From positions 248,001 through 312,000 of the forward strand of contig NZ_LJCP01000010.1 of the NCBI RefSeq assembly GCF_001399755.1: DNA of 64,000 bases, in the 5' to 3' direction. A model generated the notes under the pieces. It was not told the DNA's origin. It saw only the letters and a list, made by a program, of their open reading frames with translations, and searched no databases. The DNA is from Thiohalorhabdus denitrificans. Its GTDB lineage: Bacteria; Pseudomonadota; Gammaproteobacteria; Thiohalorhabdales; Thiohalorhabdaceae. A program made the translations under genes and the position numbers. Position 1 is the first letter of the stretch. The number at the start of each line of letters is the position of its first letter. Positions 32,092-55,502 of the stretch are shown here, one piece after another.

Positions 32092-33462
<1,371 letters not shown>

Positions 33463-33486: not shown

Positions 33487-34041
33487 TCAGTCCCGTTGTC
33501 GAATGCTGCGCTCGATGTCCTTGAGGGCCTCGAGCTGCTCATGCAACTTCTGGAGGCGTTCCTCCAATTCCCCTTTTTGTCGGGTCAGCTCCTGGTGGGC
33601 TGCCCGGCTCTCGGCCACCTCGTTGGCCAGCTGGTCCACCCGTTGCTCCAGCTGCGCGGCGTGCTGGAACAGCTCGTTACGCTGCTGGAGCTGGTCCTTG
33701 AGCAGGAAGGCCATGTTCCGGAGGTGCGGCGCCAGCTGGTCCGAGCTCCCCGTGCAGGGACCGAGCACCTCCCCCGGGTCCGCCGACACCGGTGGGCCCG
33801 AATCGGCCACCAGGGTGATGATCGCCAATCGCAGGCGGTCGGCCGTGCACCGCTCCTCCGAGACCCAGTTGCGGAAGTTCCGATACTCGGCCGTCAGCGT
33901 GCGGCCGTCGAGGGTCGAAGCATACCGATAGAAGGCGGCCAAGTCATCCGCCGAGCCCGTCGGGACAGACCGGTCCAGCGTACCGCATCCGGCCAGAAGG
34001 GTCACCACCAGGGCCGCCGACGCCGGACGCCAGGCCCTCAT
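33487..34041 (-). CDS. QseG-like lipoprotein between GlrK and GlrR
   Basis: 184 residues. A lipoprotein signal (AALVVTLLAGCGTL) is followed by a periplasmic domain with a Cys pair (SEERCTADR and LGPCTGSS) and a long coiled coil (about 115-180) rich in Gln, Glu and Leu. It corresponds in position and shape to QseG (YfhG), the outer-membrane lipoprotein that activates QseE/GlrK in enteric bacteria. It overlaps the end of glrK by 4 bp (ATGA), indicating coupled translation. Confidence 0.85.
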   Translation of the reverse strand: MRAWRPASAALVVTLLAGCGTLDRSVPTGSADDLAAFYRYASTLDGRTLTAEYRNFRNWVSEERCTADRLRLAIITLVADSGPPVSADPGEVLGPCTGSSDQLAPHLRNMAFLLKDQLQQRNELFQHAAQLEQRVDQLANEVAESRAAHQELTRQKGELEERLQKLHEQLEALKDIERSIRQRD

Positions 34042-35486
34042 GCGGCCTCCTTCTTGCCATCCAGCGGCAGGGTGACCCGGAGGTGCCCCCCCGGCTGCTC
34101 GGCGTTCACCACCTGGATACTGCCTTGATGGGCGTTGACGAATTCGCGGGTGATGGACAGCCCCAGGCCGGATCCCTTGATGTAGCCCTGCGCCTGGACA
34201 CCGCCCTGGAAGAAGGCCTCGAAGACCCGCTGGGAGTCCTGGGCGCTGATGCCGGGACCGCTGTCCACCACATCCAGCGTGGCCGAGTCCTCGGACCGGG
34301 TGGCGGCGATGCGCAGCCGGCCCCCTTCGGGGGAGTACTTGACCGCGTTGGAAACCAGGTTGTCCACGATGGTGCGGAGCTTCTCGCGGTCCGCCGTCAA
34401 TTGGATGCTCTCCTCGAGGTGGATGTCCAGCTCCAGGTGCTTGGCCATGGTAGCGGGCTTGTGGGTTTCCACCACCTCCTCAATGAGCTCCCCCAGGTGG
34501 AACTTGGTAAGGTTGAGAGCGGGCGGGCCGATCTGGACGTTGCTGAAGTTCAGCAGGTCCTCGATGAGGCGCTGTAGCTGCCCGCTGCTGTTCCGGATGA
34601 TACGCATGATCTCCCGCTGTTCGTCGTTCAGCCGACCCACCGTCCCCTCGTCCATGAGCTCCGTACCTTCGCGGATGGCGGTGAGGGGGGTCTTCAGCTC
34701 GTGGGAGACGTGGCGCAGGAAGCGAGTCTTCTCCTGTTCCAACTCGCGCAGTCGCTCCCGGAGCCAGTCCAGCTGCTCGCCTATGTGCTTCAGGTCCTGG
34801 GGCCCGCCCACGTCGATGCCCTTGTCGAAGTCCCCGTCCCCGAGCTGGCGGATGGATTGGTCCACCTCCCGGATGGGGCGGGAGATCAGCACGGTAAACA
34901 GGGCGGCCGAGGCCAGGGTCAGGGGGATCAGGGAGGCGGCCAGCCAGAACAGCACCTCCTGGGCCTGGCTCGCGTCCTTGCGCAGAACGTCCACCTCCCG
35001 GTCGATGAGCTCGTTGCTTCGCGACAGCAGGTTCTCCGCCTTCCGGGTGAGGCCGATAAAGGCGTCGGCCACCTCCTTCTGGTTGCGGTCGGTGGGCTCC
35101 GCCTGCGCCACGTGCTCGAACAGGGCCGATTCCGCCAGGAGCAGCTCGCTGGCGAGCTGGTACTGCTTGCTGCTCAGGGGCAGGTCCTTGAGCCGGGTAA
35201 CGGTGCTCTGGAACTCCTCGTGGGTGTCCCGGTAGGCCTCGAACAGCGATTCGTCCTGCAGGACAAGGAACTGGCGGCCCGTGCGCTCCATGGAGGTGAC
35301 CTGCTCGATGACCCTGTCGCTGTGCTGGATGGCGCGTACGGCCTGATGGACGGCATCCTGGCTCTGCTCGGCCAGGCGCTCCACGTGGACGGCGCCGTAA
35401 GTCAGCGCCCCGATCAGGGGCAAGGAGACCACCCCGAACCCATACAGGATGAGCATGGGTAGGGATTTTGGATTCTTGATCGCCAT
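34038..35486 (-). CDS. glrK: sensor histidine kinase GlrK (QseE)
   Basis: 482 residues. TM1 (about 8-28), a helical periplasmic domain (about 30-175), TM2 (about 178-200), HAMP, then HisKA with the phospho-acceptor in FLRHVSHELKTPLTAIREG and HATPase_c with NLVSNAVKYSPEGG, DSGPGISAQD and GSGLGLSITREF. It should phosphorylate the adjacent GlrR. First gene of the operon; no sigma54-type or sigma70-type promoter was picked out in the 94 bp upstream. Confidence 0.94.
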   Translation of the reverse strand: MAIKNPKSLPMLILYGFGVVSLPLIGALTYGAVHVERLAEQSQDAVHQAVRAIQHSDRVIEQVTSMERTGRQFLVLQDESLFEAYRDTHEEFQSTVTRLKDLPLSSKQYQLASELLLAESALFEHVAQAEPTDRNQKEVADAFIGLTRKAENLLSRSNELIDREVDVLRKDASQAQEVLFWLAASLIPLTLASAALFTVLISRPIREVDQSIRQLGDGDFDKGIDVGGPQDLKHIGEQLDWLRERLRELEQEKTRFLRHVSHELKTPLTAIREGTELMDEGTVGRLNDEQREIMRIIRNSSGQLQRLIEDLLNFSNVQIGPPALNLTKFHLGELIEEVVETHKPATMAKHLELDIHLEESIQLTADREKLRTIVDNLVSNAVKYSPEGGRLRIAATRSEDSATLDVVDSGPGISAQDSQRVFEAFFQGGVQAQGYIKGSGLGLSITREFVNAHQGSIQVVNAEQPGGHLRVTLPLDGKKEAA

Positions 35487-41317: not shown

Positions 41318-41332
41318 GGGCGCCCCGGCCGG

Positions 41333-42301
41333 TCAGTCCGATTCGGACACCCGCATCTGTTTGTGGGGCCCGTCCTGCCGCTCCGCCTCCGCCTTTCGCC
41401 GGCGGGCCGCCAGTTCCTCCAGGTTGCGCTCCGCCCGCTGGTAGTAGGTGGGACTGGCGTCCAGCGCCTGGCGGAAAAGCCGTTCCGCGGCCTCGTAGTC
41501 GCCCTGGAGCATGGCCACGTAGCCCACGTTGTTGCTGGCCTCGTGCCGCTTCATGCCCCTTTTCAGGATCCGGAACGCCTCCCGGTACCGCCCCTGCCGG
41601 GCCAGAACCACCCCGAGGTTGTTGCGCAGGGGAGGGTATTCGCTCCCTCGCTCCAGCCCCCTCTGCAGGATCCGCTCCGCCGCCTCCAGGTTGCCGGCCA
41701 TGGTCTTGGAGAAGCCGTAGTTGCTTAGCACGCGGGGGTTTCCGGAGGAGACCTCCAGGGCGCGCCGGTAATCCTCATCGGCCCGGGCGAACTCCCCGTA
41801 CAAGTCGTGGATGAAGGCGAGGCCGTTCCAGGCCCGCCAACGGCCCGGCTCCTTCGCCACCAGCTGCTCCAGGGTCCCTCGCGCCGCGGCCAGCTTCCGC
41901 AGGCGCAACCGGGCCAGCCCGAGCCCCTCCAAGGCCTCGCCGTTCTCCGGCTCCAGCCGAGCCAGCCGCCCGAACACCTCCGCGGCCCGCCGGTGCTCGT
42001 CCTGCCGGGCGAAGGCCCGGCCGAGGCCCAGCAGGGCCTCGCCGTCCTCGGAGCGGTCCTTGACCACCTCGCGGAAGTGGCGCTCGGCTTCCCGCCAGTT
42101 CTCCTCCTCCAGGGCCGTTTGACCCCGCTCGAGGTGCTCCTCCGGACGGAGGTCCAGGTCCTCCGGGCTGGGGTCCCGTTGGGTGACGTCCCCCCGCTGG
42201 ACCGGCTGCATCTCGGAGGTCGGGGACTGCTGGGTCGCGCATGCCGTCATGCCGAAGAGGACGGCAACGAGGAGGCCAATTTTCCGTGGGAGTAATTGCA
42301 T
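41333..42301 (-). CDS. tadD: TadD-like tetratricopeptide lipoprotein
   Basis: 322 residues from the ATG at 42301. A lipoprotein signal (LVAVLFGMTACATQ) is followed by about six TPR units (residues 60-300), for example AERHFREVVKDRSEDGEALL and AERLFRQALDASPTYYQRAE. TadD is thought to act as a pilotin or assembly factor for the Tad secretin. It is the last gene of the Tad operon, 48 bp after tadC, and its 3' end lies 15 bp from the convergent fructosamine-kinase-like gene. Confidence 0.85.
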   Translation of the reverse strand: MQLLPRKIGLLVAVLFGMTACATQQSPTSEMQPVQRGDVTQRDPSPEDLDLRPEEHLERGQTALEEENWREAERHFREVVKDRSEDGEALLGLGRAFARQDEHRRAAEVFGRLARLEPENGEALEGLGLARLRLRKLAAARGTLEQLVAKEPGRWRAWNGLAFIHDLYGEFARADEDYRRALEVSSGNPRVLSNYGFSKTMAGNLEAAERILQRGLERGSEYPPLRNNLGVVLARQGRYREAFRILKRGMKRHEASNNVGYVAMLQGDYEAAERLFRQALDASPTYYQRAERNLEELAARRRKAEAERQDGPHKQMRVSESD

Positions 42302-42349
42302 GGGGCCCTCGCGGTTACGTTGGAAAGGGCGGCCGGATGCCACGGGCCG

Positions 42350-43333
42350 CTAGTCGCCCAGGGCGGGCCCTAGGCCCCGCATGATCTGGATCACCGCCGG
42401 TCCCAGTATGACCAGGAACAGCGCCGGGAAGATGAACAGGATCACCGGGAAGATCAGCTTCACCGGCAGCTTGGCGGCCTTCTCCTCGGCGATCTGGATG
42501 CGCAGGGTGCGCATCTCCTGGGCCTGCTCCCGCAGGGCCTTGCCGATCCCGGTGCCGAAACGCTCCGCCTGGATCAGCACACTTACGAGGGAGCGAACCT
42601 CCTCGATCTCGGTGCGCTCGGCCAGGTCCTTCAGGGCCTCCTCCCGGCTCTTCCCCGCGCGCAGCTCCCAGCCCACGATGGCCAGCTCCTCGGAGATCTC
42701 CGGGTGGCTGAGCTTCAGTTCGCGGCTTACCCGCTGGAGGGTGGCATCGAACCCCAGGCCCGCCTCCACGCACACCACCATCATGTCCATGGCATCGGCA
42801 AAGCCGTCCCGGAAGGCGGTAAGCCGCCGCTGGTGCCGGCGCTCCACCAGCCAGTCGGGTAGGTAATAGCCGATCATTCCCAGGAGGAGCACACCGGCCA
42901 GGACGGCGATGTTTCCCACGAACAGGGACCTGCCGAAGAAGAGTACCCCCAGGGTAAGGGACAGGATCAGCAGCCCCACCGCCAGCAGGGCCTTCAGGCC
43001 CATGAACACCTCCAGGGAGTGCGGTCCGCGAATCCCGGCCTGGACGAGCTTCTTCCGGATCCGGGATTTCTGCCAGTCCTCGGTAGGGATGGTGACCTGG
43101 GACAGCCGCTGGGAGAGGCGCAGGAGGAAGCCTTGCTGTCCTTCGGCCTGCTCTCCCGCCTCTTTCCGCTGGCGCGGGCGGAAGAAGGTCTCCATGCGCT
43201 TGCGCACTGGCCTTTGCCGGTTGAGCAACAGGGCGGCCACGCTCTGCACGGCGAGCACCACCGCGATGAAGACCAGACCGGAGGCCAGGGGCCAGACCTG
43301 CTCCTGCGAGAAATTGGTGAACAGTTCCTCCAC
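42350..43333 (-). CDS. tadC: Tad pilus inner-membrane platform protein TadC
   Basis: 327 residues from a GTG start. A TM segment (about 15-35), two more in the middle (about 110-155) and a C-terminal one (about 290-318) flank the T2SSF/GspF domain (about 170-300; MDMMVVCVEAGLGFDATLQR, ALKDLAERTEIEEVRSLVSV). The inner-membrane platform of the Flp pilus is built from TadB and TadC. It is 15 bp after tadB in the operon. Confidence 0.93.
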   Translation of the reverse strand: MEELFTNFSQEQVWPLASGLVFIAVVLAVQSVAALLLNRQRPVRKRMETFFRPRQRKEAGEQAEGQQGFLLRLSQRLSQVTIPTEDWQKSRIRKKLVQAGIRGPHSLEVFMGLKALLAVGLLILSLTLGVLFFGRSLFVGNIAVLAGVLLLGMIGYYLPDWLVERRHQRRLTAFRDGFADAMDMMVVCVEAGLGFDATLQRVSRELKLSHPEISEELAIVGWELRAGKSREEALKDLAERTEIEEVRSLVSVLIQAERFGTGIGKALREQAQEMRTLRIQIAEEKAAKLPVKLIFPVILFIFPALFLVILGPAVIQIMRGLGPALGD

Positions 43334-43348
43334 TTCCCGAACCCCCGG

Positions 43349-44338
43349 TCATATATGGAAATTGACCATCCGCCGGATGACGAAATAGCCCACGAGGAAG
43401 AGCAGAAGCTGGGCGCCGAGGATCATCCGGCCGAAGGGCTCGTTGACCAGGGGCGCCATATAGCCGGGGTTCATCACACTGATTGCCCCGCCAACCACGA
43501 AGGGCAGGGCGATGAGGACGTGGGCCGACATCTTCATCTCCGCCGCGTTGATCTGGACCTCCCGGTAGGTCTTCTGGCGGGCCCGGATAATGTCGGCGAG
43601 GCGGGTAAGCAGGTCGGCCAGGTTGCCGCCGGTGGAGCGCTGCAGGTTGACCGCCGTGGCGAAGTAGTGGACCTCGGGGATGCCCACCCGGGAGGCCAGG
43701 TTGTACAGGGCGGACTCCAGGTCCAGCCCGAAGTTGATTTCCTCGAAGGTCAGGCGGAACTGGCTGCCCACCGGCTCGGGGAGCTCCCCCGCGGCGGCCT
43801 TCAGCGAGGCGGGGAAGGGGTTCCCAGCGCGCAGGCTGCGGGCCAGGAAGTCGAGGGCGTCGGGCAGGATCTCCGCGAACCGGGCCTGGTTCTTGGCCAC
43901 CTGTCGGCGCAGCCAGAGCAGCGGGACCCCGAATCCCACCACGCCGCCCACCAACAGGGCGGGCAGGAGGCGCCACTGGGCCACCACCCCCAGGGCCAGG
44001 AAGAGCGCCAGGGCCGTCCCACCGCCCAGGGCCAGGAAGCGGGGCACGGTCAGGTTGACCCCGCTCCGGACCAGCATCCGGTCGAGGGTCTGGATCCGTG
44101 GGATGTAAGCAAGAAGGCGATCCAGCCAGGGCAGATCGCTGAACCGCTCGCGCTTGACCAGATCGGGGGCCTCCATGCCGTGCTCGCCGCCGGCGGACAG
44201 GGTCCGGATCTGGTTGAGGAAGCGTGAGCGGCCCTGGGACCGGAAGCTACGGAAGAGCTGGTACAGGCCTTCCACCAGCAGCACCACCGCCAGGAAAACC
44301 AGCGCCGAGATCGCGTAGAAGCCGAGGTTCTGGTCCAT
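43349..44338 (-). CDS. tadB: Tad pilus inner-membrane platform protein TadB
   Basis: 329 residues from the ATG at 44338 (MDQNLGFYAISALVFLAVVL). N-terminal TM, a basic cytoplasmic segment, a central TM pair (about 108-150) and the T2SSF domain (about 160-290; DALDFLARSLRAGNPFPASL, STGGNLADLLTRLADIIRAR), then C-terminal TMs. It is the paralogue and partner of TadC. The start is chosen because the open frame continuing upstream merely shadows tadA. Confidence 0.93.
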   Translation of the reverse strand: MDQNLGFYAISALVFLAVVLLVEGLYQLFRSFRSQGRSRFLNQIRTLSAGGEHGMEAPDLVKRERFSDLPWLDRLLAYIPRIQTLDRMLVRSGVNLTVPRFLALGGGTALALFLALGVVAQWRLLPALLVGGVVGFGVPLLWLRRQVAKNQARFAEILPDALDFLARSLRAGNPFPASLKAAAGELPEPVGSQFRLTFEEINFGLDLESALYNLASRVGIPEVHYFATAVNLQRSTGGNLADLLTRLADIIRARQKTYREVQINAAEMKMSAHVLIALPFVVGGAISVMNPGYMAPLVNEPFGRMILGAQLLLFLVGYFVIRRMVNFHI

Positions 44339-44346
44339 AGGGTGCC

Positions 44347-45684
44347 CTATTCGTAGGCCCGGTCCGGATCGAACAGGGCGTCGTCGAGCCGTATGCCCTG
44401 CTCCTGGAAGCGGCCGAGGATCTGGGGCCGGATTCCGGAGGCCTGGAACACTCCCTGCACCCGGCCCTCGGAGGAGACCGTCTGCTGCCGGAAGCGGAAG
44501 ATCTCCTGCATGCTGATCACCTCCTCCTCCATTCCCGTGATCTCCTGGATGCTGGACACCAGCCGGCGGCCGTCCATGAGCCGTTCCAGCTGCACCACCA
44601 GGTGCAGGGCCGAGGAGATCTGGTGCCGGATGACGTTGGGTGGGATGGAGATGCCCGTCATGCCCACCATGTGGTCCAGGCGGGTCATGGAGTCTCGCGG
44701 GGTGTTGGCGTGGATGGTGGTCAGGGAGCCTTCGTGGCCCGTGTTCATGGCCTGCAGCATGTCCAGCGCCTCCTCGCCGCGCACCTCGCCCAGGACCATG
44801 CGGTCGGGGCGCATGCGCAGGGCGTTGCGGACCAGGTCCCGCTGGGTAATCTCGCCCTCGCCCTCGATGTTGGGCGGGCGGGTCTCCATGCGGACCACGT
44901 GGGGCTGCTGCAGCTGCAGCTCGGCGGAATCCTCGATGGTCACCACCCGTTCCCATTCCGGAATGGACCCGGACATGGCGTTCAGCAGGGTGGTCTTGCC
45001 CGTGCCCGTGCCGCCGGAGATGAGCACATTGACCCGGGAGCGCACGGCGGAGCGGAGGAAATCGGCCATGCCCGCGGTGAGGCTCTTCCGCTCCACCAGG
45101 TTCTCCATGGTCAACGGATCTTCGCTGAACTTGCGGATGGACAGCATGGGCCCGTCCACCGCGATGGGCGGGATCACCGCGTTCACCCGGGACCCGTCCG
45201 CCAGGCGCGCATCCACCATGGGGGAGGACTCGTCGATCCGCCGCCCGATGCCGCTGACGATCTTGTCGATGATGCGCATCAGGTGGTCGTCGTTCTGGAA
45301 CCGGGCCGAGGCCTCCTCCAGACGCCCGGCGCGCTCCACGTAGACCGTCTGGGAGGTGTTCACCAGGATGTCGTTGACCGTGGGGTCGGCGAGCAGGGGC
45401 TCCAGGGGACCGAGGCCCAGGACCTCGTCCTGGATCTCCTGCACCAGGCGGTCCCGTTCCGCGGCGTTCAGCGGGATGTCCTCCTCGGCCAGCATTTCCC
45501 GCACCAGCTCGCCGATCTGCTCTCGGACCTCCCGGGGATCGAGGTGCTCGATGATGGCCAGGTTCATGCGGTCCAGGAGACGGCGATGGATCTGCCCCTT
45601 CATCTCCTGGAAATCGGGCAGGTTGTGGGCCCCCTGGGACCCACCCCCCTGGGATCGCAGAGCGTGCTCCCGGTCTTCGGCCAT
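44347..45684 (-). CDS. tadA: Tad/Flp pilus assembly ATPase TadA (CpaF)
   Basis: 445 residues. Secretion ATPase powering Flp pilus extension and probably retraction. Walker A is VLISGGTGTGKTTLLNAMSG, the Asp box is VVTIEDSAELQLQQPHVVRM, Walker B is MRPDRMVLGEVRGEEALDML and the His box is TGHEGSLTTIHANTPRDSM. The N-terminal domain (about 20-130) is typical of CpaF. It lies 8 bp upstream of tadB. Confidence 0.96.
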   Translation of the reverse strand: MAEDREHALRSQGGGSQGAHNLPDFQEMKGQIHRRLLDRMNLAIIEHLDPREVREQIGELVREMLAEEDIPLNAAERDRLVQEIQDEVLGLGPLEPLLADPTVNDILVNTSQTVYVERAGRLEEASARFQNDDHLMRIIDKIVSGIGRRIDESSPMVDARLADGSRVNAVIPPIAVDGPMLSIRKFSEDPLTMENLVERKSLTAGMADFLRSAVRSRVNVLISGGTGTGKTTLLNAMSGSIPEWERVVTIEDSAELQLQQPHVVRMETRPPNIEGEGEITQRDLVRNALRMRPDRMVLGEVRGEEALDMLQAMNTGHEGSLTTIHANTPRDSMTRLDHMVGMTGISIPPNVIRHQISSALHLVVQLERLMDGRRLVSSIQEITGMEEEVISMQEIFRFRQQTVSSEGRVQGVFQASGIRPQILGRFQEQGIRLDDALFDPDRAYE

Positions 45685-45698
45685 GGCTTCCTACTCCG

Positions 45699-46913
45699 TT
45701 ATCGCCGGAAAAGGTTCCACAAGGAGCCCCCCTTCCGCCGATCCCCGGCGCTGCCCGGGGTGGCTTGGGAGGGCTGGGCGAGACGGCTGGCGAGCGCCTG
45801 GAGGTCCCTGGCGAGCGGGGACTGGCTTTTGACCTCGGCCACAGGACGCCCCTCGGCCTGGGCCCGGTTGGCCGCCTCGAAATCGTTATGCACCCGGGCT
45901 CCGATCTCCCGGCCGAGGAGGGCGGGGATGTCCTCCTCCCGGATGTCGCCAAGCCGTTTGCCGGTGGCCCGGTTCAGGAGCAGCTCCAGCTTCTCCGCCC
46001 GAACCCCCAAGGTGGCAAGGCCATCCAGGGTGGTCCGGGCGTCGTGCAGGGTGGCGATGTCCTGCTGGATGACCAGGTGCACGGGGTCGGCGATGGCCAG
46101 GGTGGTTACCATCAGCGGGTTGAAAACGCGGGGCAGGTCCAGAATCACGTAGTCGTGGCTCTCGAGGGCGGCCCCGAGGATAGGCCTGGCAACCTCGCCC
46201 GGGATCTCGCCGCTGCCCTGGATCGACTCCGGAGCCGCAAGCACATGGAGGCCGCTGTCGTGCTCCGTCATGAGCGCCCCCAGGAACAGGGGATCCACCC
46301 GTTCGGGGGCATCCAGTGCGTCCTGGATGGTGCGCTCGGGGCGTAGGTTGAGGGACATGGCCACCGCGCCGAACTGGAGGTCCAAGTCCAGGATGGCCAC
46401 CTTGGCCTCCCCGCCTGCGGCCAGATGGTAGGCCACGTTGGTGGCGAGGGTGGTGGCCCCGGCCCCGCCCTTGGCGTTAAGGAAGGCGATGGCCTTGCCC
46501 CGGGGGGCTTGGTCGGCCCGCAGGCTGTCCCGCTCGGATACGAGGACCCCCTCCAGCTCCCGGGCGAGCTGGTCGGGGAGTTCCGGCTGGGGCAGGACAT
46601 CCCGCACCCCCGCCCGCATGAGGGTGCGCAGGGCCTTCAGGTCACCCTGGGCGTACGTAACGAAGACATTGGCCCGGTCGCCGACCGTCGCCACCAGCTC
46701 CCGGGTCCGCTGGAGGTCCCCCTCATCCTGGCTGTCGATCTCCAGCAGGACGAGGTGGGTAAGGCGGGCCGCCTCGATATGGCTCAGGGGCCCTTCCTCG
46801 CCGACCATCCGCAGGTCCAGGTCGATCCCTTCCACCCCCTGGGCGGCCTCGTTGATCTCCCGCGCAGTGGCCGGTTCGGTGAGGAGCGCCAGCACCTTGA
46901 GCCCGATAATCAT
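45699..46913 (-). CDS. tadZ: Tad pilus localisation protein TadZ (CpaE)
   Basis: 404 residues. The N-terminal atypical receiver-like domain (about 1-135) has no clear phospho-acceptor. It is followed by a MinD/ParA-type ATPase (about 140-380) with a deviant Walker A, FLNAKGGAGATTLATNVAYH, where the usual Lys of KGGxGKT is Ala, as in several TadZ proteins. Other motifs are VAILDLDLQFGAVAMSL and YVILDLPRVFNPLM. TadZ/CpaE places the Tad machine at a pole. It is 14 bp upstream of tadA. Confidence 0.9.
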   Translation of the reverse strand: MIIGLKVLALLTEPATAREINEAAQGVEGIDLDLRMVGEEGPLSHIEAARLTHLVLLEIDSQDEGDLQRTRELVATVGDRANVFVTYAQGDLKALRTLMRAGVRDVLPQPELPDQLARELEGVLVSERDSLRADQAPRGKAIAFLNAKGGAGATTLATNVAYHLAAGGEAKVAILDLDLQFGAVAMSLNLRPERTIQDALDAPERVDPLFLGALMTEHDSGLHVLAAPESIQGSGEIPGEVARPILGAALESHDYVILDLPRVFNPLMVTTLAIADPVHLVIQQDIATLHDARTTLDGLATLGVRAEKLELLLNRATGKRLGDIREEDIPALLGREIGARVHNDFEAANRAQAEGRPVAEVKSQSPLARDLQALASRLAQPSQATPGSAGDRRKGGSLWNLFRR

Positions 46914-46961
46914 TGGGGTGGAAAACCTCTCATTTGCCGAGAAATCCGTCCTTGAGGAGCC

Positions 46962-47483
46962 TCAGGAGACGGGCTGGGTCTCCAGATCCTCGGAGGTCCG
47001 GCTGGACGCGAACGCCGGCAGGGTCACCTCCGTCTCCAGTCCCAGGATGTGGGGGACCATCAGGCGGTGCTCCACGTCCTGAACCTCCACCGTGACCGTC
47101 AGCACCGGCGTCGGCCGGTCCGCATGGCCCGTTCCCGAACAGCGGTAGGTCACCACCACCTGCTCCTCCTCAAGCGGAGCGTAGAGCGTCTTCATGGATG
47201 CAAGCACCCGGTCGCTGGGGCCCGCCTGGACCTCTCCGGAGGTCCCCTCGGAGCACTCGGAGAGCAGCTCACCGAGGTCGGCCTGGGGGTCGTTGACGAT
47301 GGCGGTGCGGACGCCCGCGCGGGTGGCCTCGGCTACCCTCGACCAGTTGAACAGGGCGTAGCCGAATTCCAGTACACCCAGAACCAGCACGAGAAAGAGC
47401 ATCAGACCCACGGCCAGCTCCACCAGGGCCGCGCCGGCCTGATCCTGGAATTCCTCGGCCCGTGGTAAAGGCTCATTCCCCAA
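46962..47483 (-). CDS. TadE-like pseudopilin (minor pilin) 1
   Basis: 173 residues. A short leader (EFQDQAG) is followed by AALVELAVGLMLFLVLVLGV, the TadE-type hydrophobic helix with Glu at position 5 after the expected cleavage, consistent with processing by the TadV prepilin peptidase. The periplasmic part contains a Cys pair (LLSECSEGTSGE and VTYRCSGTGH). TadE-like proteins prime or cap the pilus. It overlaps the upstream tadE-like gene by 11 bp. Confidence 0.87.
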   Translation of the reverse strand: MGNEPLPRAEEFQDQAGAALVELAVGLMLFLVLVLGVLEFGYALFNWSRVAEATRAGVRTAIVNDPQADLGELLSECSEGTSGEVQAGPSDRVLASMKTLYAPLEEEQVVVTYRCSGTGHADRPTPVLTVTVEVQDVEHRLMVPHILGLETEVTLPAFASSRTSEDLETQPVS

Positions 47484-47979
47484 CGTAGCGTTCCTCCGCC
47501 ATGGCCCGGAGGACTAGGTCACCGAGGGGGAGGAATTCCCCCGTGGCGATCACCGGGTCGAAATCCGCGGCGGCCCGGACGCGGATCACGCAGGGAGAGC
47601 CCGCCATGCCTTCCCCCGAAATCGGCTCCGGGCCGAGCCCTTCGATGGTTACGTTCTCCGTTCCGAGGTTGGGAACCAGCGGGTCCGTGGTCCCGAAGGG
47701 GTCGCCGAAAACCACCAGGCGGGTGGCCCTCTCGACACCCTCGCCCCAGTTTTCCCCCTCCGCACAGCTTTCCCAGTCCAATGCCCCGGGCTCCCGGCTC
47801 AGATAGCGGGCCCCCGATTCCGCCGCCTTGGCGAGGATGTGGTTCTGGTAGAGGCCCCGCCCCAGCTCGACGACCCCCACCAGCAGGAGCATAAGCACGG
47901 GGAGCACAAGGGCCAGCTCCACCAGGGCAGCCCCTCGTTCCTCGCCACCGGCCCTTGCCCTATTCATAGAGCTGAACAT
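47473..47979 (-). CDS. TadE-like pseudopilin (minor pilin) 2
   Basis: 168 residues. N-terminal GGEERGAALVELALVLPVLM is the TadE-type processing site and helix with Glu at position 5. A globular periplasmic part follows with Cys residues (WESCAEGENW, AGSPCVIRVR). The start could also be the ATG at 47967 (MNRARAGG); neither has a good ribosome site, and translation is probably coupled to the tadG-like gene, whose stop lies at 47960. With gene 46962-47483 it probably corresponds to the tadE/tadF pair of other Tad loci. Confidence 0.85.
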   Translation of the reverse strand: MFSSMNRARAGGEERGAALVELALVLPVLMLLLVGVVELGRGLYQNHILAKAAESGARYLSREPGALDWESCAEGENWGEGVERATRLVVFGDPFGTTDPLVPNLGTENVTIEGLGPEPISGEGMAGSPCVIRVRAAADFDPVIATGEFLPLGDLVLRAMAEERYVGE

Positions 47980-49414
47980 CCACGTGGTATTCCTCGTCCT
48001 TGCCGCTCGCTAGGCCCATGTACTCCACTAGGAAGTCGATGTCGGTGTCCGAGGCCCCCTGCTTGGCCCGCTGGAGGACGAAGAACTTGGCGAAGGTCTC
48101 GGCGATCACGTCCATGTCCCCCTTCACCTCCTGCTCCTCACAGTTAACCGCGGCCACGAGCAGGGTGCGCCGCCCCGGAACCGAGGCCGGTTCCGAATCG
48201 AAATCCAGATGGTTCGGGTCGGCGAGGCCGTCGGGGACGGGATCGGGCCGCTCGGGAGTCGGGGCCGGATCGGTGTAGGTGTCGTGGTCCGGAACGGGGA
48301 TGGGCAGATCGGCATCCGCGGGACAACTAACCCCGTCGCCGGCGTCCGGGTCACAGGGCGGGTAGCCCTCGGTGAGCTCCCATAAGTGGGCCTCCCTGCG
48401 GGTCCAGGAGTCCCAGTCCAGCGGCTTGGGTTGGCCGTGGTAGGCGTGATAATCGGCCCAATAGTCGGCGGCCGGCCAATCCCCCTTGCCGAAGCGTTCG
48501 GACATCCCGCCGATGTCCCGGAAGCTCTGGTCCTGGGGGTAGCCCATGACGCCCGGGGACGGGGGGAAATCATCGGGGGTCATCCCCTTGTAGAGATCGA
48601 AGCGGGTGTTCCAACCGTGGTTGGGCCAGCTCTGCACGGTGCCTGTACGGGTGTGGAGGTCGGGGTAGGTACACCCCTGGCGGCTCGGGTCGGCGATGTA
48701 TTCGCCGAGGGCTTTGGCGCCATGCTCTGGATCCCCCGATTCGTCCGAGGGGCGAAGGAAGGCGAAGTTGCCGGGTTCCCAGTGGTCCGCTTGGTATTTG
48801 AGGTACATCGAGTCCCCCGGCTCCAGCAGGGGCCCCTCGGGCCGGTGGGGGTCCACCGCCTCCCGGAAGGTCTCCCCCTCCGCCTCGAAGGGGTTGCAGA
48901 ACATCACCGGCGGGAATTCGCACATATAGTAGTGCCGCCCGGCGAGTGCCCGGACATCCACCCGAAGCTCGTCCTGCATGGAAACCCCGGGCAGGACGTC
49001 CAGGACGGGCAGGAATAGGAGGTCCACTGGCCATTGCTCGATCCGGACCTCCGCGTAATGCGCCTCCCGGTAGGAGGTGGTCTCCACCTTTCCGGAGCCT
49101 TCGGGGTCCCGGCTGGAGCCAATGGTGGCGTAGAAGGTGAAGTTCTCGTCCGGCAGGACGTCCTCCAGCGGGATTCCTTGGGGCTCCAGCATCTCCCGGG
49201 CGGCCTGCCGGGCCCGCTCCAGGGCCCCGTATCGGGCGTTCAGCTCCGTGGCCGCCGCCAGGGCCGCCCCGTCCGCGGCGTTCTGCAGCCGGCTCTTCCA
49301 CAGCGCCAGGCGGCCGAAATCCAGGGCCAGGCCCGTCATTCCCAGCAAGACCGCGATCAGAATGGCCATCATGGGCAGGACCGCCCCGCCTTCCCGCTTT
49401 TGGATGCCCCGCAT
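47960..49414 (-). CDS. TadG-like pilus assembly protein
   Basis: 484 residues from the ATG at 49414, which has GGGAGGT upstream. The N-terminal region GGAVLPMMAILIAVLLGMTG followed by DFGRLALWKSRLQNAADGAA matches the TadG/TadE-like pilus N-domain. The rest is a large extracytoplasmic region rich in Asp, Pro and aromatic residues, with several Cys (MCEFPPVMFCNPF, CDPDAGDGVSC). A von Willebrand A MIDAS motif was not recognised. An upstream ATG at 49438 would add eight residues. Probably an envelope-spanning Tad component. Confidence 0.82.
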   Translation of the reverse strand: MRGIQKREGGAVLPMMAILIAVLLGMTGLALDFGRLALWKSRLQNAADGAALAAATELNARYGALERARQAAREMLEPQGIPLEDVLPDENFTFYATIGSSRDPEGSGKVETTSYREAHYAEVRIEQWPVDLLFLPVLDVLPGVSMQDELRVDVRALAGRHYYMCEFPPVMFCNPFEAEGETFREAVDPHRPEGPLLEPGDSMYLKYQADHWEPGNFAFLRPSDESGDPEHGAKALGEYIADPSRQGCTYPDLHTRTGTVQSWPNHGWNTRFDLYKGMTPDDFPPSPGVMGYPQDQSFRDIGGMSERFGKGDWPAADYWADYHAYHGQPKPLDWDSWTRREAHLWELTEGYPPCDPDAGDGVSCPADADLPIPVPDHDTYTDPAPTPERPDPVPDGLADPNHLDFDSEPASVPGRRTLLVAAVNCEEQEVKGDMDVIAETFAKFFVLQRAKQGASDTDIDFLVEYMGLASGKDEEYHVDVQLYE

Positions 49415-49434
49415 GGCACCTACCTCCCGGGGCC

Positions 49435-49707
49435 TCATTGTCCCTGCATGTTCTCGAGAAGCCGCTCCCCGTCCGCCTCGTTCTGTTCGGTTCGGTAGTT
49501 CTCCAGCACCCGCTCGGCCTTGGGCCCGTCGAGAGGGGTGGCCGTAGGGTCCTGGCGGGGCGCTTCGGGATTCAGAAGCTGGACCTTCATGTTGTTGCGG
49601 ACCGCGTCGCCGTGTCGGGCGTCCTCGCCGCCTGCCTTCCCGAGGGCCGGCGGGCCCGCCAGGAGCAGGGCGATTGCCAGAATCGCCGCGGGTGCGTTGT
49701 GGTTCAT
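49435..49707 (-). CDS. small exported protein inside the Tad operon
   Basis: 90 residues from the ATG at 49707, with GAGGGAA upstream. A clear signal peptide (AILAIALLLAGPPALGKAGG) is followed by a short charged mature part ending ERVLENYRTEQNEADGERL. No Cys, no lipobox and no known motif. It lies between the secretin and tadG-like genes, 11 bp after the secretin stop, so a periplasmic role in Tad assembly is likely. The family was not recognised. Confidence 0.7.
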   Translation of the reverse strand: MNHNAPAAILAIALLLAGPPALGKAGGEDARHGDAVRNNMKVQLLNPEAPRQDPTATPLDGPKAERVLENYRTEQNEADGERLLENMQGQ

Positions 49708-49718
49708 GGTCCGTTCCC

Positions 49719-51266
49719 TCACAGCTGATGTCCGTAGGCGCCTTCCATGCCCCCGTCCTCGGGCGGAGTCCCGGCCGGGGCCTCATCCGCCTCCCGGTGC
49801 CCGTCTCCCGGCTCCTCGGGGGCCAGTCCTTCCACCCGGCCCATGAGGTACTGGTCGAACCGGCTGGGGGGCAGGACGCCGTCGGTGGGCAGGGCCATCC
49901 GCTCCGCCCGGGCGGGCTTTACCAGATGGGGGGTGACGATGATCACCAGCTCGCTCTGGTTCTGCTGGAAATCGGTGCTGCGGAACAGCGCCCCCAGGAT
50001 CGGGATGTCCCCCAGGACGGGGAATTTGGTCACCGTGCTCTGGTCCTCGCTCTCGATCAGCCCGGCGAGGGCGAAGCTTTCCCCGTCCCCGAGCTCCACC
50101 GTGGACGACGCCCGCCGGGTGGCCAGGCCGGGGATATTGAACCCGCCCGGCGTCCGGAAGCTGGCGGTGGGGTCGATGTTGGAGACCTCGGTCTGCAGGT
50201 TGATATTGATCTTGCCGGGGGAAAGCACCGTGGGGGTGAACTCCAGCCCCACACCGAACTCCTTGAATTCCACGGTAATGGCGTTCATGCCCTCCGCCCC
50301 CGCCGAGGACTGGGCCGCCGGCACCGGGAACTCCCCGCCCACCAGGAAGCTGGCCTCCTGCCCGGACAGGGCGATGATGTTGGGCTCGGCGAGGGTGCTT
50401 GCCAGGCCCTTCTCCTCGAGGGCCTTGACCTGGAAGTTCACTCCCTCGAACAGCATGCCCAGGGTCCCGAAGGGGGTGGCCTGGAGGGTGCTTTCCTGCA
50501 GGAAGTCGAAGGCGAAATCGTCGCCCGCGGTCCCAGAGGCCCCCGCCTCGGGGGTTCCCGCCATGCCGGGCGCGGGGCTGCCGAAGTTGTTGCCGCCCTG
50601 TGGGGTATCGCCCAGGTTGTTGGTGGTATCCACTCCCAGGGAGCGCAGGGCATCCCGGTTCACCTCGGACACCTTCACCTCCAGGAGGACCTGCTGCCCC
50701 CCGCCCACCTGCAGGCGGTTGGTGACATTTTCGCCGGCGAAGCTGCGGGTGACGGCAAGGGCCGTGTCCATGGCCTCCTTGCTGGACACCTGGCCGGAGA
50801 GGAGGACCGAACCGCTGGAGGCCCGGACCTGGATGTCCTCCTCCTCGGGGAGAACCTCATGGAGCTTGCGCTTGATGGCGGTCAGGTCGTGGCCCACCAG
50901 GACGTCCAGCAGAGCGATGAGATCGCCTTGCTCGCTGCGCAGGGCCAGGTTGGTCAGGCCGGGCGACTTCCCGAGAATCAGCACCTGCCGGGAGGTCAGG
51001 AGCTTGACGTCGGCCACCTCCTGGCTGCCGAGGATTAACTGTTCAACGGGACGGGGGGAGCGGAGGATCTTGGATTTCCCCACCGCGAGCCGGAATTCCT
51101 CCTTCTCCTGATCGCCGAGCTCCAGCTCCACCTTTTTTCCCTGGTCTCCCTGGCCGATGGCGGTAATGGGGGCCGCCACTCCCAGAAGGGCGACAACCGC
51201 ACCCAGCCAATGGGCGACGTTGCCCCGTGCTCCGTTTGTCTTCCCCAGCAATCTTGCCGCCCTCAT
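49719..51266 (-). CDS. rcpA: Tad pilus outer-membrane secretin RcpA (CpaC)
   Basis: 515 residues from the ATG at 51266. Signal peptide (AVVALLGVAAPITAIGQG), pilus-assembly N-domain (about 45-115; LAVGKSKILRSPRPVEQLIL), a BON-type domain (about 118-185) and the type II/III secretin domain (about 200-460; VLLEVKVSEVNRDALRSLGV, GVGLEFTPTVLSPGKININL, FPVLGDIPILGALFRS). It forms the outer-membrane pore of the Flp pilus. The first codons overlap the cpaB stop as ATGA. Confidence 0.94.
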   Translation of the reverse strand: MRAARLLGKTNGARGNVAHWLGAVVALLGVAAPITAIGQGDQGKKVELELGDQEKEEFRLAVGKSKILRSPRPVEQLILGSQEVADVKLLTSRQVLILGKSPGLTNLALRSEQGDLIALLDVLVGHDLTAIKRKLHEVLPEEEDIQVRASSGSVLLSGQVSSKEAMDTALAVTRSFAGENVTNRLQVGGGQQVLLEVKVSEVNRDALRSLGVDTTNNLGDTPQGGNNFGSPAPGMAGTPEAGASGTAGDDFAFDFLQESTLQATPFGTLGMLFEGVNFQVKALEEKGLASTLAEPNIIALSGQEASFLVGGEFPVPAAQSSAGAEGMNAITVEFKEFGVGLEFTPTVLSPGKININLQTEVSNIDPTASFRTPGGFNIPGLATRRASSTVELGDGESFALAGLIESEDQSTVTKFPVLGDIPILGALFRSTDFQQNQSELVIIVTPHLVKPARAERMALPTDGVLPPSRFDQYLMGRVEGLAPEEPGDGHREADEAPAGTPPEDGGMEGAYGHQL

Positions 51267-52159
51267 TGGTCCGCCTTCGCCTGTTGCTCGGGGCCATCCG
51301 GCGAGGCCTCCTGGCCTTCCGGGACCCGCTTCTCCTCGACCACCAAACCCCGGATCAGCTCCACCTTGCGGTCCGAAGAGGCCTTCTTGGTCTTTTCCTT
51401 TGAGGAAGAGGAGGCCACGGGCCGGGGGTTGGCGGGTGGAGTGATCAGGTTGCCGGTGGCGATAACGTTCGGCCTGGGGGTTTGCCCGTCCCCCTCGTTG
51501 CGCAGGGCCAGGCTGAGCTCCCCGACGCTTTCGGCCAGGGTGATGCGCTGCGCCTGCTCGGGGGTCGTCCGCAGGGTGACCGTATTCACCACCTTGGGCT
51601 CCTCCTCCTCCTCGGAGGCCACCTGGTCGATCCCCAGGACCCGCAGGTTCTGCTCGAGGATGCGGGTGACCTTGTCCTCCCGGATCCGTCCCGCGGTGGT
51701 GGTGTGCAGGACGTCCACCCGGTCGCCGGGCAGGACAAAACCGCCCACGCCGCGGACCTCGTTGACGGGGATGGTTATGGCCCGCATCCCCTCGGGGATT
51801 TTTGCGGTCAGGCCCCGCAGCCGGCCTTTGCCGGCCACCTTGTAGTCCAGGACCGGCTCCCCCTTGCGGATCTCCTTGGTCAGGGTGGGTGGGGCGTCCC
51901 CCCCGAGCAGCCTGTCGGGGTCCGCATAGGCCCCCTCCGGAACGGCCTCCTTCGGCCAGTCCACCGTGGTCACCAGGAGGTCCCGGAGGTCGTCCCCGGC
52001 CGCCAGGTCCTCGGTGACCACCACCACGGGCCGGGTCTCCACCGCGGAAGTCTCCACCACCTCCGGCTCCGGGGGCTGCAGCTGGGTGTTGAGCAGCCAG
52101 ACGGCGATGCCACCGATGACGACGGCGACGGAAAGGGTGATCAGGGCCCGTCTCTCCAT
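51263..52159 (-). CDS. cpaB: Flp pilus assembly protein CpaB (RcpC)
   Basis: 298 residues from the ATG at 52159, with GGGAGG upstream. N-terminal TM anchor (ALITLSVAVVIGGIAVWLLN), then a SAF domain (about 45-115; VVVVTEDLAAGDDLRDLLVT, IRKGEPVLDYKV) and the RcpC-specific part (IPEGMRAITIPVNEVRGVGG, FVLPGDRVDVLHTT). The C-terminal tail is Lys/Glu/Ser-rich. It is a periplasmic, secretin-associated factor, possibly peptidoglycan binding. It overlaps the secretin gene by 4 bp. Confidence 0.93.
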   Translation of the reverse strand: MERRALITLSVAVVIGGIAVWLLNTQLQPPEPEVVETSAVETRPVVVVTEDLAAGDDLRDLLVTTVDWPKEAVPEGAYADPDRLLGGDAPPTLTKEIRKGEPVLDYKVAGKGRLRGLTAKIPEGMRAITIPVNEVRGVGGFVLPGDRVDVLHTTTAGRIREDKVTRILEQNLRVLGIDQVASEEEEEPKVVNTVTLRTTPEQAQRITLAESVGELSLALRNEGDGQTPRPNVIATGNLITPPANPRPVASSSSKEKTKKASSDRKVELIRGLVVEEKRVPEGQEASPDGPEQQAKADQ

Positions 52160-52192
52160 GGTGCCTCCCACCGAGGGGCGGCCGCGTCCGGC

Positions 52193-53572
52193 CTACCCTT
52201 GAACGAAATAAACCTGCCAGGCCCGCGCCAGGGCCTCCTCGGAGAGCCTGGGCTCCTCGCCCTCGAACAGCGCGAACTCGATGACCTTGTTGATCAGGTC
52301 CCGCGGGTGGCACGCGATCAAAGGCGTGCCGGTGGGCTCGTAGTGGGCCCGTAGCAGGTAGTCCACCGCCTCGTCACGGTATTCCAGCCCGTTGGCGCGG
52401 CAGTACTGGGCGAAGATGGCCCGGTAGTCCGCCTCGTCGAGGTGCCCCAGATAGACCTTGTAGCCCAGGCGACGCAGGAAGGCGTTGTCGGCGAGATCCT
52501 GCGGCCGGAGGTTGGTGGCGAAGATGGGGAACACGTCGAAGGGGACGGGGAACTTGGCGCCGCTCTGCAGGGCCAGGTAGTCGATCCCCGCCTCCAGGGG
52601 CACCACCCACCGGTTCAGGAGGGTGGTGACCTCCACCTGCTGCCGGCCCAGGTCGTCGATCATGAGCAGGCCCCCGGCGGCCTTCACCTGCAGCGGAGCC
52701 TCGTAGAAGTTGCCGGCGGCGTGGTAAGCGGGATCGAGCATGTCCGCCGTCAGCTCGCCGCCGGCAATCACCACCGGACGCCGGCACCGGACCCAGCGTC
52801 GATCCCAGTCCTCACCGGGCCGGTCCAGGGAAGGGTCCGGGGTCCGGGCGGCGGGGGCCTCCGCGGGCTTGTGGTAGACGGGGTCGAAGACCCGCACGAT
52901 CTGGCCGTCCACGGAGACGGCGTGGGGCACCGCCACATCGCCCTGGAGGAGATGGGCGAACTGCGTTGCCAGCAGGGTCTTGCCGGTGCCCGCCGGGCCG
53001 TAGATGAACAGGGAGCTGGCGCTGTTGAAGGCCGCTCCGAGCTGCTCGAGGACCCGCTCGGGGACCACCAAGCCGGCGAAGGCCTCGTCCATGGCGGTGC
53101 GGTCCACCACGGTCCAGCGCACGCTCTGGGCCTCGATCTGGCGCTGGAACTGCTCCAGAGGAACGGGCACCGGGCCGACGTAGCCGTCGTCCTCGAGGTG
53201 GGAGCGGGCCCGGTCCCGGCCCTGCTGGCTGAGGAAGTAGGTCTCGGTGCCGCTCGGGGCCCCCGGGCGGGCGCCTTGGACATCCACCAGGTGCTCGCGC
53301 CGCAGGAAGGTGATGGTTTCCTGCAGCAGGGACACGGGCACCCCCAGGTTCCGGCCCAGCTCGTCGAGACGCTGGGCACCGCCCGTGTGCAGGTGCTTCA
53401 GCAGGAGCCGGACCAGGGTCTCCGGGCCCACCCCCAAATCGGCCTGCTCGCGGGGTGCGCCGGGATAGGTGGGTCCATCCGCCCGGCGTTGGCCCTGGCG
53501 GGAAAGCTTCCGGTGGCGGAACCGCCCCAGGACCTCCGGGGTGGCCTCCGCGGCGGGGGAGGGCAGACTCAT
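52193..53572 (-). CDS. AAA+ ATPase with N-terminal winged-helix-like region, in Tad operon
   Basis: 459 residues. Residues about 45-130 resemble a winged helix (LVRLLLKHLHTGGAQRLDEL, VSLLQETITFLRREHLVDVQ). The AAA+ core follows with Walker A SLFIYGPAGTGKTLLATQF, Walker B GGLLMIDDLGRQQVEVTTLL, sensor-1-like FPIFATNLRPQDLADNAFLR and a lid with HPRDLINKVIEF. It is not a canonical Tad component of Actinobacillus or Caulobacter, yet it sits between tadV and cpaB with the same orientation and 33 bp spacing. It may be a MoxR-like remodeller or a regulator of pilus assembly; the function is unproven. Confidence 0.8.
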   Translation of the reverse strand: MSLPSPAAEATPEVLGRFRHRKLSRQGQRRADGPTYPGAPREQADLGVGPETLVRLLLKHLHTGGAQRLDELGRNLGVPVSLLQETITFLRREHLVDVQGARPGAPSGTETYFLSQQGRDRARSHLEDDGYVGPVPVPLEQFQRQIEAQSVRWTVVDRTAMDEAFAGLVVPERVLEQLGAAFNSASSLFIYGPAGTGKTLLATQFAHLLQGDVAVPHAVSVDGQIVRVFDPVYHKPAEAPAARTPDPSLDRPGEDWDRRWVRCRRPVVIAGGELTADMLDPAYHAAGNFYEAPLQVKAAGGLLMIDDLGRQQVEVTTLLNRWVVPLEAGIDYLALQSGAKFPVPFDVFPIFATNLRPQDLADNAFLRRLGYKVYLGHLDEADYRAIFAQYCRANGLEYRDEAVDYLLRAHYEPTGTPLIACHPRDLINKVIEFALFEGEEPRLSEEALARAWQVYFVQG

Positions 53573-53597
53573 GACCAGGTACCCCTTTTCGGAACCG

Positions 53598-54143
53598 TCA
53601 CAAGATCAAGGCCGGTAAGCTCGGGGCCAGGAAGAGGCCGGCGAGGGTCCCAACGGCAATGGCCACCGCGTAGGGCAGCTGCACCGGCCCGGAGCCGGCC
53701 TCGCTTCCGGTCAGAGGCTGCCTGGTTGCAGGCGAAAGGCCCAGCCGCTGCCAGGACGCCCGCAGCCCGGCCCGCCAGATCAGGGCAAATACGCCCAGGA
53801 GGCCCCCCGCCAGGACCACCCCCCCCAGGACGGCCAGGGCCAATTTCCAGGTGACGATGGCGCCCACGGCGGTCAGCAGCTTCACGTCCCCGGCCCCGAA
53901 CCAGCCCAGGGCGAACAGCGGAAAGGTGAGCCCGAGCAGGAGCAGGGCGCCCGCGAGGGCATAAAGAAGCCCCGCTAGGCCGCCTATCCAGGCGTTGACC
54001 GCCAGCCCCGCCCCCAGTCCGGCAAGCACCAGCCGGTTGGGGATGCGGTGCTCGCGCAGATCGAAAAAGCACCCAGCTATGAGTATGGGAATGAGCACCC
54101 CGATAACAGGCAAGGATGTCAGGCTGGATAAAACTGCGGGCAT
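53598..54143 (-). CDS. tadV: Flp prepilin peptidase TadV (CpaA), A24 family
   Basis: 181 residues with about six TM helices. The two catalytic Asp of A24 peptidases are seen in GCFFDLREHRIPNRLVL and in the GxGD motif GWFGAGDVKLLTAVGA. It lacks the N-methyltransferase domain, as expected for Tad-type peptidases. It cleaves Flp and the TadE-like pseudopilins at the G/A site. It lies 78 bp downstream of flp, behind a terminator-like hairpin. Confidence 0.94.
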   Translation of the reverse strand: MPAVLSSLTSLPVIGVLIPILIAGCFFDLREHRIPNRLVLAGLGAGLAVNAWIGGLAGLLYALAGALLLLGLTFPLFALGWFGAGDVKLLTAVGAIVTWKLALAVLGGVVLAGGLLGVFALIWRAGLRASWQRLGLSPATRQPLTGSEAGSGPVQLPYAVAIAVGTLAGLFLAPSLPALIL

Positions 54144-54181
54144 TTTGCGGGCTCACCAAATTCAGATAGATAACTAGGAAA

Positions 54182-54204
54182 CCGGCCGGGTTGTTCCCGA
54201 CCGG
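54182..54204 (-). terminator. hairpin between flp and tadV
   Basis: On the minus strand, CCGGTCGGG, loop AACAA, then CCCGGCCGG gives a 9-bp stem with one G-T wobble, followed by TTTCC. The U-tract is short, so partial termination is likely. Its position right after the pilin gene would let flp mRNA be more abundant than the downstream assembly genes. Confidence 0.6.
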
Positions 54205-54221
54205 AAAACCCGTAATAACTT

Positions 54222-54398
54222 TTACGCGTCTGGATTTTGGAGCGTTGTTACGATGTTATCGAAGGCTGCCTCAACTTCACCGCCCAAGGTGACTACAGTT
54301 GCAATCGCAACAACGGCGATTAACGCCACCATAATGGCGTATTCCACCATGGTGGCCCCGGATTCTTCGTGCACGAAACGGCGGATCAGCTCTTGCAT
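54222..54398 (-). CDS. flp: Flp-type major pilin
   Basis: 58 residues. A leader MQELIRRFVHEESG is followed by ATMVEYAIMVALIAVVAIAT; cleavage after Gly14 leaves Glu5-Tyr6 of the mature protein, the Flp signature. The mature pilin of about 44 residues ends in a short polar helix (EAAFDNIVTTLQNPDA). The ATG at 54398 has a very strong AGGAGGAG ribosome site. It is the first gene of the Tad operon and the only Flp pilin seen. A near-consensus sigma54 promoter lies about 80 bp upstream. Confidence 0.96.
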   Translation of the reverse strand: MQELIRRFVHEESGATMVEYAIMVALIAVVAIATVVTLGGEVEAAFDNIVTTLQNPDA

Positions 54399-54480
54399 GG
54401 GATCTCCTCCTGGCAAGAAGTTCTTAATGCTAGGAATGACCGTCCCTGGGTATGGCAAAGACAGCCTTCCCAATCTTCTT

Positions 54481-54496
54481 TGCATCCGCCGTGCCA
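54481..54496 (-). promoter_or_regulatory. sigma54 (-24/-12) promoter of the flp-tad operon
   Basis: On the minus strand the site reads TGGCACGGCGGATGCA, against the consensus TGGCACGnnnnTTGCW: the -24 GG and -12 GC are present with exactly 10 bp between, and only one base of the core differs (A for T before TGC). Transcription would start near 54470, giving a leader of about 70 nt ahead of the flp ribosome site. Confidence 0.8.
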
Positions 54497-54741
54497 ACAG
54501 GGTCCCCCCCCTTTGGAATCCGTCGGATGCGGGCGCGGAAGGCAACGCCTCTAAACGCTTTCCCTATGGCTATACGGTTTGTTTACAGGGCGCTCCACCC
54601 GGGAATGCTTCTCTATTCTTAGAAATTGCAAGGAAAACAGGGGATTTCGTTACCCTCCAGCCAGCTGGGAGCTGTAAAATCCCGCGTCGGCTTTCCCGGT
54701 TCACGCGAAGCGGGCCTGTGCGAAAACCCAAAAGCCGGGAG

Positions 54742-54819
54742 GCAGCCCGAGTCCGATGCACGGCACCTGCGGATCGGGCTGCGAAAGGCCTCGGGGCCTA
54801 CGCCAAGGAGCCCCGAGGC
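54742..54819. repeat. two tandem perfect hairpins
   Basis: First: GCAGCCCGA (54742-54750) with TCGGGCTGC (54774-54782), extended inside by TCCG (54752-54755) with CGGA (54770-54773) around a bulged G. Second: GCCTCGGGGC (54788-54797) with GCCCCGAGGC (54810-54819), 12-nt loop. They are 5 nt apart. Neither is followed by a T-run on either strand, so simple termination is unlikely. Confidence 0.7.
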
Positions 54820-54914
54820 GCCCGCTCCCGCCCATCGTGCCGGCAAGGGTCGGTCGATTCCGCGTGCCCCTACCATCCCTGTTTATCCCGGGTCCCGAGG
54901 ACAGGCTCCGTCGG

Positions 54915-55085
54915 TGTCCTTTACGGTCAGTAGGACGTAAGCGGGGAAAAAGGACAACATCGGGAGAACCCGTAACTTCCTGCGGCTTTCCCATATTCTC
55001 CAGTCCTGCCTTTTTGGCTGGAAAGTCTTTATTTTTCTGATGGTTGAAATCTTTTTTGTCGAAAGTGGTAGGGAAGTAAAGGACA
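54915..55085. repeat. 10-bp inverted repeats around an AT-rich segment
   Basis: TGTCCTTTAC (54915-54924) and GTAAAGGACA (55076-55085) are exact inverted repeats bounding a 171-bp segment whose right part is strikingly AT-rich for this genome. A third AAAGGACA occurs at 54949-54956, and a second exact pair, AATGTCCGG (55111-55119) and CCGGACATT (55186-55194), lies just outside. No obvious target-site duplication flanks the first pair. Candidate regulator sites or remnant of a small mobile element. Confidence 0.45.
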
Positions 55086-55393
55086 AAAGACCGAACTCTT
55101 TGTTCAGTTAATGTCCGGGAAGGAAGCACCGTTAGGTGAAACCAAGGGGGTAGCAGCGTAAGCGGGGCGCCCTAGGGAGGGAATCCGGACATTTCTCGGT
55201 TTGCCGGGGAAGCGGCTGGGGACGGATTTGCTTGCAGTCGGTGGGGTGGTAGCCTCGGGGCGTCCCTCGCGGACCTTCCTCCGGGTTTCCAGGCTAGCCC
55301 GGAGACTACGGGGCAGGGGACAACACCAGGCCCGTGGCCGGATCCCGGGAGGCAAGGCGGCCCGGGGCCATCTTTGCTAGGATACGGACCGTC

Positions 55394-55481
55394 GGAGGGG
55401 TGGCAGAGTGGACGAATGCGGCGGACTTGAAATCCGTTGGGCCTTCGGGCCCCGGGGGTTCGAATCCCTCCCCCTCCGCCA
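55394..55481 (+). tRNA. tRNA-Ser (anticodon TGA)
   Basis: 88 nt including an encoded CCA. Acceptor arms GGAGGGG (55394-55400) and CCCCTCC (55471-55477) pair fully; discriminator G, then CCA at 55479-55481. The anticodon loop CTTGAAA gives TGA (55428-55430), reading UCA. A long variable arm with GGGCC/GGCCC is typical of tRNA-Ser, and the T-loop is TTCGAAT. An extended -10 (TGC plus TAGGAT, 55375-55383) lies 10 bp upstream. Confidence 0.97.
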
Positions 55482-55502
55482 ACCAGCCCTTGGGGGTGAT
55501 GG

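Follow-up and report, generated by a model that had tools for sequence, protein, structure and literature searches.

The minus strand of the window, by which we mean the whole 64-kb stretch of DNA analyzed here, carries a cluster of genes for a Flp/Tad pilus. At the head of this cluster lies flp (54222..54398), encoding a Flp/Fap pilin of 58 amino acids (PF04964, 2.9e-12, 46.6 bits as compared to a cut-off of 32.2), whose ATG at 54398 is preceded by a strong ribosome binding site (CCAGGAGGAGATCCC-ATG) and whose stop codon ends at 54222. It is followed on the same strand by genes for a prepilin peptidase of the TadV/CpaA type (53598..54143, PF01478, 3.2e-17) and for a Tad-linked P-loop ATPase of 459 amino acids (52193..53572), and then, within 41333..52171, for RcpC/CpaB, the secretin RcpA, TadG/E/F-like proteins, TadZ, the TadA ATPase, TadB/C-like proteins, and a TadD-like TPR protein. 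RcpC, the secretin, TadZ, and TadA are backed by Pfam matches, and the other tad proteins were assigned from ORF content and order. The families by which a Flp/Tad locus can be recognized, PF04964, PF01478, PF16976, PF00263, PF13614, and PF00437, are all found above their cut-offs.

A GC-rich stem-loop with a 9-bp stem (CCGGTCGGG/CCCGGCCGG) can be drawn on the minus strand in the gap that separates flp from the prepilin peptidase gene (54178..54204, ends approximate). Its fold has a z-score of -2.1, and 7 of 200 shuffled sequences fold as well. This element may possibly act as an attenuator or as an mRNA stabilizer that would favor the pilin over the machinery. The Tad-linked ATPase matches no Pfam family above cut-off; its homologues, which are 36-46% identical, adjoin flp in several other Tad loci. 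The protein has an N-terminal extension, and its relatives are spread over Proteobacteria, Myxococcota, Chloroflexota, Acidobacteria, Cyanobacteria-related bins, and others. An alignment-based profile search with this ATPase returned 80 loci.

The -24/-12 site upstream of flp

Sigma-54 promoters follow the consensus TGGCACN5TTGCW, with GG and GC 10 bp apart, and are expected on the same strand as the gene, shortly 5' of it. A site of this kind, TGGCACGGCGGATGCA, lies on the minus strand upstream of flp (54481..54496), with TGGCAC beginning at 54496 and TGCA extending as far as 54481, in the context ...CCCTGT-TGGCACGGCGGATGCA-AAGAAG.... It deviates from the consensus at a single base, an A in place of the first T of TTGC, and its GG and GC are separated by a gap of 10 bases, the canonical -24/-12 spacing. 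Position 7 is a G, a pyrimidine stands directly 5' of TGG, and the flp ATG follows 83 bp after the C of the -12 box. The first-pass annotation had described a near-perfect sigma-54 motif, matching in all but one core base and exactly spaced, about 80 bp ahead of the pilin start and its strong ribosome site, and the sequence agrees with this description; the interval 54398-54496 under which it was listed has the ATG and the -24 box as its exact limits. Within the 64-kb window, the flp site is the sole match to TGGCACN5TTGCW with no more than one mismatch, and the sole exact match to TGGCACN6TGCW. The other matches to the former pattern have 2 mismatches each, and the total of 15 does not exceed the shuffle mean of 20.

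With a start placed 12 nt past the GC of the -12 box, transcription of flp would begin near 54470, giving a predicted 5' leader of ~72 nt (54399..54470, minus strand) that ends in the Shine-Dalgarno sequence AGGAGG directly 5' of the ATG. The fold of this leader is without significance (z = -1.1). No sigma-70-like promoter was found in a scan of 54150-55600, and no IHF site with up to 2 mismatches was found.

Across the 2.87-Mb genome, exact TGGCACN6TGCW occurs 15 times, and so does a reversed control pattern. Thus, the number of matches alone carries no meaning, and enrichment of the motif count was dropped as evidence. The two patterns differ in location: 12 of the 15 exact sites were called non-coding, versus 2 of the 15 control sites (one-sided Fisher p = 3.4e-4), by a codon-usage score trained on the genes of the window. 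All 12 non-coding sites are located on the coding strand, 43-109 bp 5' of an ATG with a Shine-Dalgarno sequence. According to our own reading of the translations, the genes behind these sites include two glnA paralogues, type IVa pilA, a formate/nitrite-type transporter, secreted proteins, and a YeeE-like transporter, a company typical of sigma-54. The ATGCA -12 box of the flp site is also found at both glnA promoters, so that the mismatched base is an ordinary one in this genome. When scored with a matrix derived from the remaining 11 promoters, the flp site reaches 22.8 bits, as compared to leave-one-out scores of 13.8-23.2 for those 11 promoters and 13.1 for the runner-up position in the window; these scores are partly circular because the training sites were picked by the same core pattern, which does not apply to the flanking positions. 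Taken together, sequence analyses support the view that the flp site belongs with the other sigma-54 promoters of this genome. This membership, along with the -12 base common to both glnA promoters, lends in silico support to the earlier proposal that a sigma-54 promoter drives flp.

With 2 non-coding sites among the 15 of the control as well, chance may account for one or two of the 15 pattern matches. Were the flp site one of these, an unrecognized promoter in the ~900-bp intergenic region, used by sigma-70 or a different sigma factor, would serve flp. The equal frequency of the pattern and its reversed control is compatible with such a chance match, as is the near absence of the site from the upstream regions of flp genes elsewhere (see below). 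However, the flp site has the correct strand, distance, and flanking bases, shares its -12 variant with glnA, and has a strong matrix score in a region where no sigma-70-like match was found, and we consider a chance match unlikely.

Several other sigma-54 sites of the genome have features of their own. A strong site elsewhere in the genome (L023 1501-1516, G000:C11:89801-89816) has a perfect GlrR box, TGTCGTTGCCCAACGACA, at -170. All that follows it is an ORF of 22 codons and a terminator-like hairpin, and the locus is a candidate for a small RNA gene or a small peptide gene under GlrR control. Searched against Rfam, the candidate small RNA gave no match. Three further sites (L024, L025, and L026) lie within 7 kb (G000:C14:14366-21206), with an activator gene ~4 kb off and TTGCAA-like elements recurring upstream, and these probably form a small local regulon. 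Two sites (L012 and L015) precede genes for secreted proteins, possibly PEP-CTERM proteins, and the genome encodes the PEP-CTERM response regulator PrsR (723 bits).

RpoN and candidate activators

The genome contains one copy of rpoN (~487 aa, PF04552, 6.1e-69) with an intact RpoN box, ARRTVVKYR, and 13 full sigma-54 activator domains, a count which leaves out four weak matches of 24-27 bits. We consider it likely, with a probability of roughly 0.83, that the site upstream of flp is a true sigma-54 promoter that drives flp from a start near 54470 with one of the 13 proteins as activator. In this mechanism, RNA polymerase would be held at the promoter as a closed complex, and the switching on of an activator bound further upstream would allow flp mRNA to start at the predicted position. 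Synthesis of the major pilin would depend on RpoN and one of the 13 enhancer-binding activators, and transcription into the downstream tad genes, presumably in a single transcription unit with flp, would probably be RpoN-dependent as well.

The window itself encodes a GlrR-type sigma-54 activator with an intact GAFTGA motif (32092..33462, minus strand; PF00158, 1.5e-73), for which the best NCBIfam model is GlrR (666 bits, under its cut-off of 763), and, adjoining it, a GlrK-like sensor kinase (34038..35486, minus strand; HisKA, HATPase_c, and HAMP). The first-pass annotation had hinted at this protein as the partner of the flp promoter. The activator is indeed present with its GAFTGA loop intact, and it shares the window with flp and has its kinase partner nearby, but the hint that it activates flp is unsupported. 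The consensus of the GlrR/QseF box is TGTCN10GACA (PMC8745638). Such a box is absent upstream of flp even when one mismatch is allowed, and neither TGTC nor GACA occurs in the 250 bp upstream of flp, whereas the sigma-54 site of L023 has a perfect box. Furthermore, the regulator gene is 21 kb away from flp, and the regulator is kept with 96% identity, as part of a conserved block of genes, in the sister species that lacks the tad cluster. Given the absence of the box and the presence of 13 activators in the genome, the co-location of the GlrR-type gene and flp in the window means little. Thus, the GlrR-type protein is not favored as flp activator, and this special case of the main reading seems very improbable.

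Co-regulation of flp with type IVa pilA by a PilR-like activator would be another special case. Both genes encode pilins, and pilA has a strong sigma-54 site ~9 kb from the gene for a PilR-like activator. However, five TGTC elements lie within 110 bp upstream of pilA and none at flp, and we regard shared control as improbable. Likewise, NtrC-like dyads are present at the glnA promoters but not at the flp promoter. Overall, the region upstream of flp contains no clear activator-binding dyad and no GlrR-, PilR-, or NtrC-like element, and GlrR, PilR, and NtrC are all unsupported as flp activator because their elements are missing. The genes around six other activators (sox-like, porin-like, and others) revealed no link to the pilus.

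Comparison with other Tad loci and history of the cluster

The first-pass annotation had suggested scanning related genomes for the same site upstream of flp. In ~60 upstream regions of flp genes taken from other genomes (29 other gammaproteobacterial matches and ~30 from Tad loci sharing the ATPase, with slight overlap), only one further site with no more than one mismatch was found, TGGCAAGACGATTGCT upstream of an Acidobacteria pilin gene (L170). Since there is only one comparable site in ~60 regions and the close relatives have no flp (see below), conservation is not seen, and sigma-54 control is not general in these loci. A Tad locus of Geomonas paludis (L160) resembles the present one in having the same Tad-linked ATPase, and there a gene for an activator with an intact GAFTGA motif is located directly upstream of the Flp-type pilin genes; this locus has only a weaker -24/-12-like site, CGGCACGCATTGTGCT, with 2 mismatches. 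Repeated TTTACAC elements lie between the activator gene and the pilin genes of this locus (L160 3594-5000).

The earlier remark that Tad loci are rarely reported under sigma-54 is fair, but there is a precedent, since sigma-54-type regulation of a pilin of the Flp/Tad type has been described for DVU2114 of Desulfovibrio vulgaris (PMC3333781). Like the locus described here, the DORF39640-DVU2116 operon has cpa/tad genes downstream of a Flp/Tad-type pilin gene, in front of which a sigma-54-dependent regulator binds. Unlike here, the activator gene of D. vulgaris is near its target and binding was observed by DAP-chip (PMC3333781), and the two lineages differ. The flp site also resembles the -24/-12 promoters of the major pilin gene pilA under PilR/RpoN in Pseudomonas and Geobacter, and that of pilA in this genome. 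Flp, by contrast, is a pilin of the Tad type rather than of type IVa, and its gene lacks the upstream TGTC elements of this genome's pilA. As regulated Flp/Tad pilus loci of Gammaproteobacteria, the flp-tad locus of Pseudomonas aeruginosa and the flp/tad locus of Pectobacterium are comparable to this one. However, the former is controlled by PprB and SigX (PMC10418997), and the latter by an OmpR-type two-component system encoded beside the cluster (PMC3767616), and not by sigma-54. For flp/tad of Pseudomonas fluorescens PF07, the table of changed genes gives no rpoN-mutant value (PMC9207406), and a published overview of sigma-54 regulons names PilA but neither Flp nor Tad (PMC12316311). Thus, sigma-54 control would be unusual for a Tad pilus, although not unprecedented.

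In the genome of the sister species (G001), the ~14-kb tad cluster including the flp promoter (41331-55390) is missing at the same place. The flanks are collinear, and alignment at 83% DNA identity reaches window position 41330 and picks up again from 55391, at tRNA-Ser; ~210 bp between the kinase gene and tRNA-Ser stand in place of the cluster (L211 15280-15489). Neither of the two same-genus genomes, one of which is 82% complete (G002), contains a match to Flp or a close match to TadA. Hence, either the present lineage acquired the cluster or the sister lineage lost it. No difference in G+C content was found for the tad genes, no integrase-like gene was seen, and no flanking direct repeats of at least 10 bp were found. 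We tentatively propose, as a somewhat doubtful scenario, that the cluster was laterally gained or differentially kept and was wired into the host sigma-54 network in this lineage alone, such that the Tad pilus, an adhesion pilus, might answer to a nutrient or envelope activator rather than to the usual PprB- or OmpR-type regulators.

If the flp promoter is indeed under the control of sigma-54, the very short list of Tad pili known to be regulated in this way would grow by one, and pilin synthesis would be strictly activator-dependent. It would also mean that a pilus cluster absent from the sister species can join the existing regulatory network of its host.
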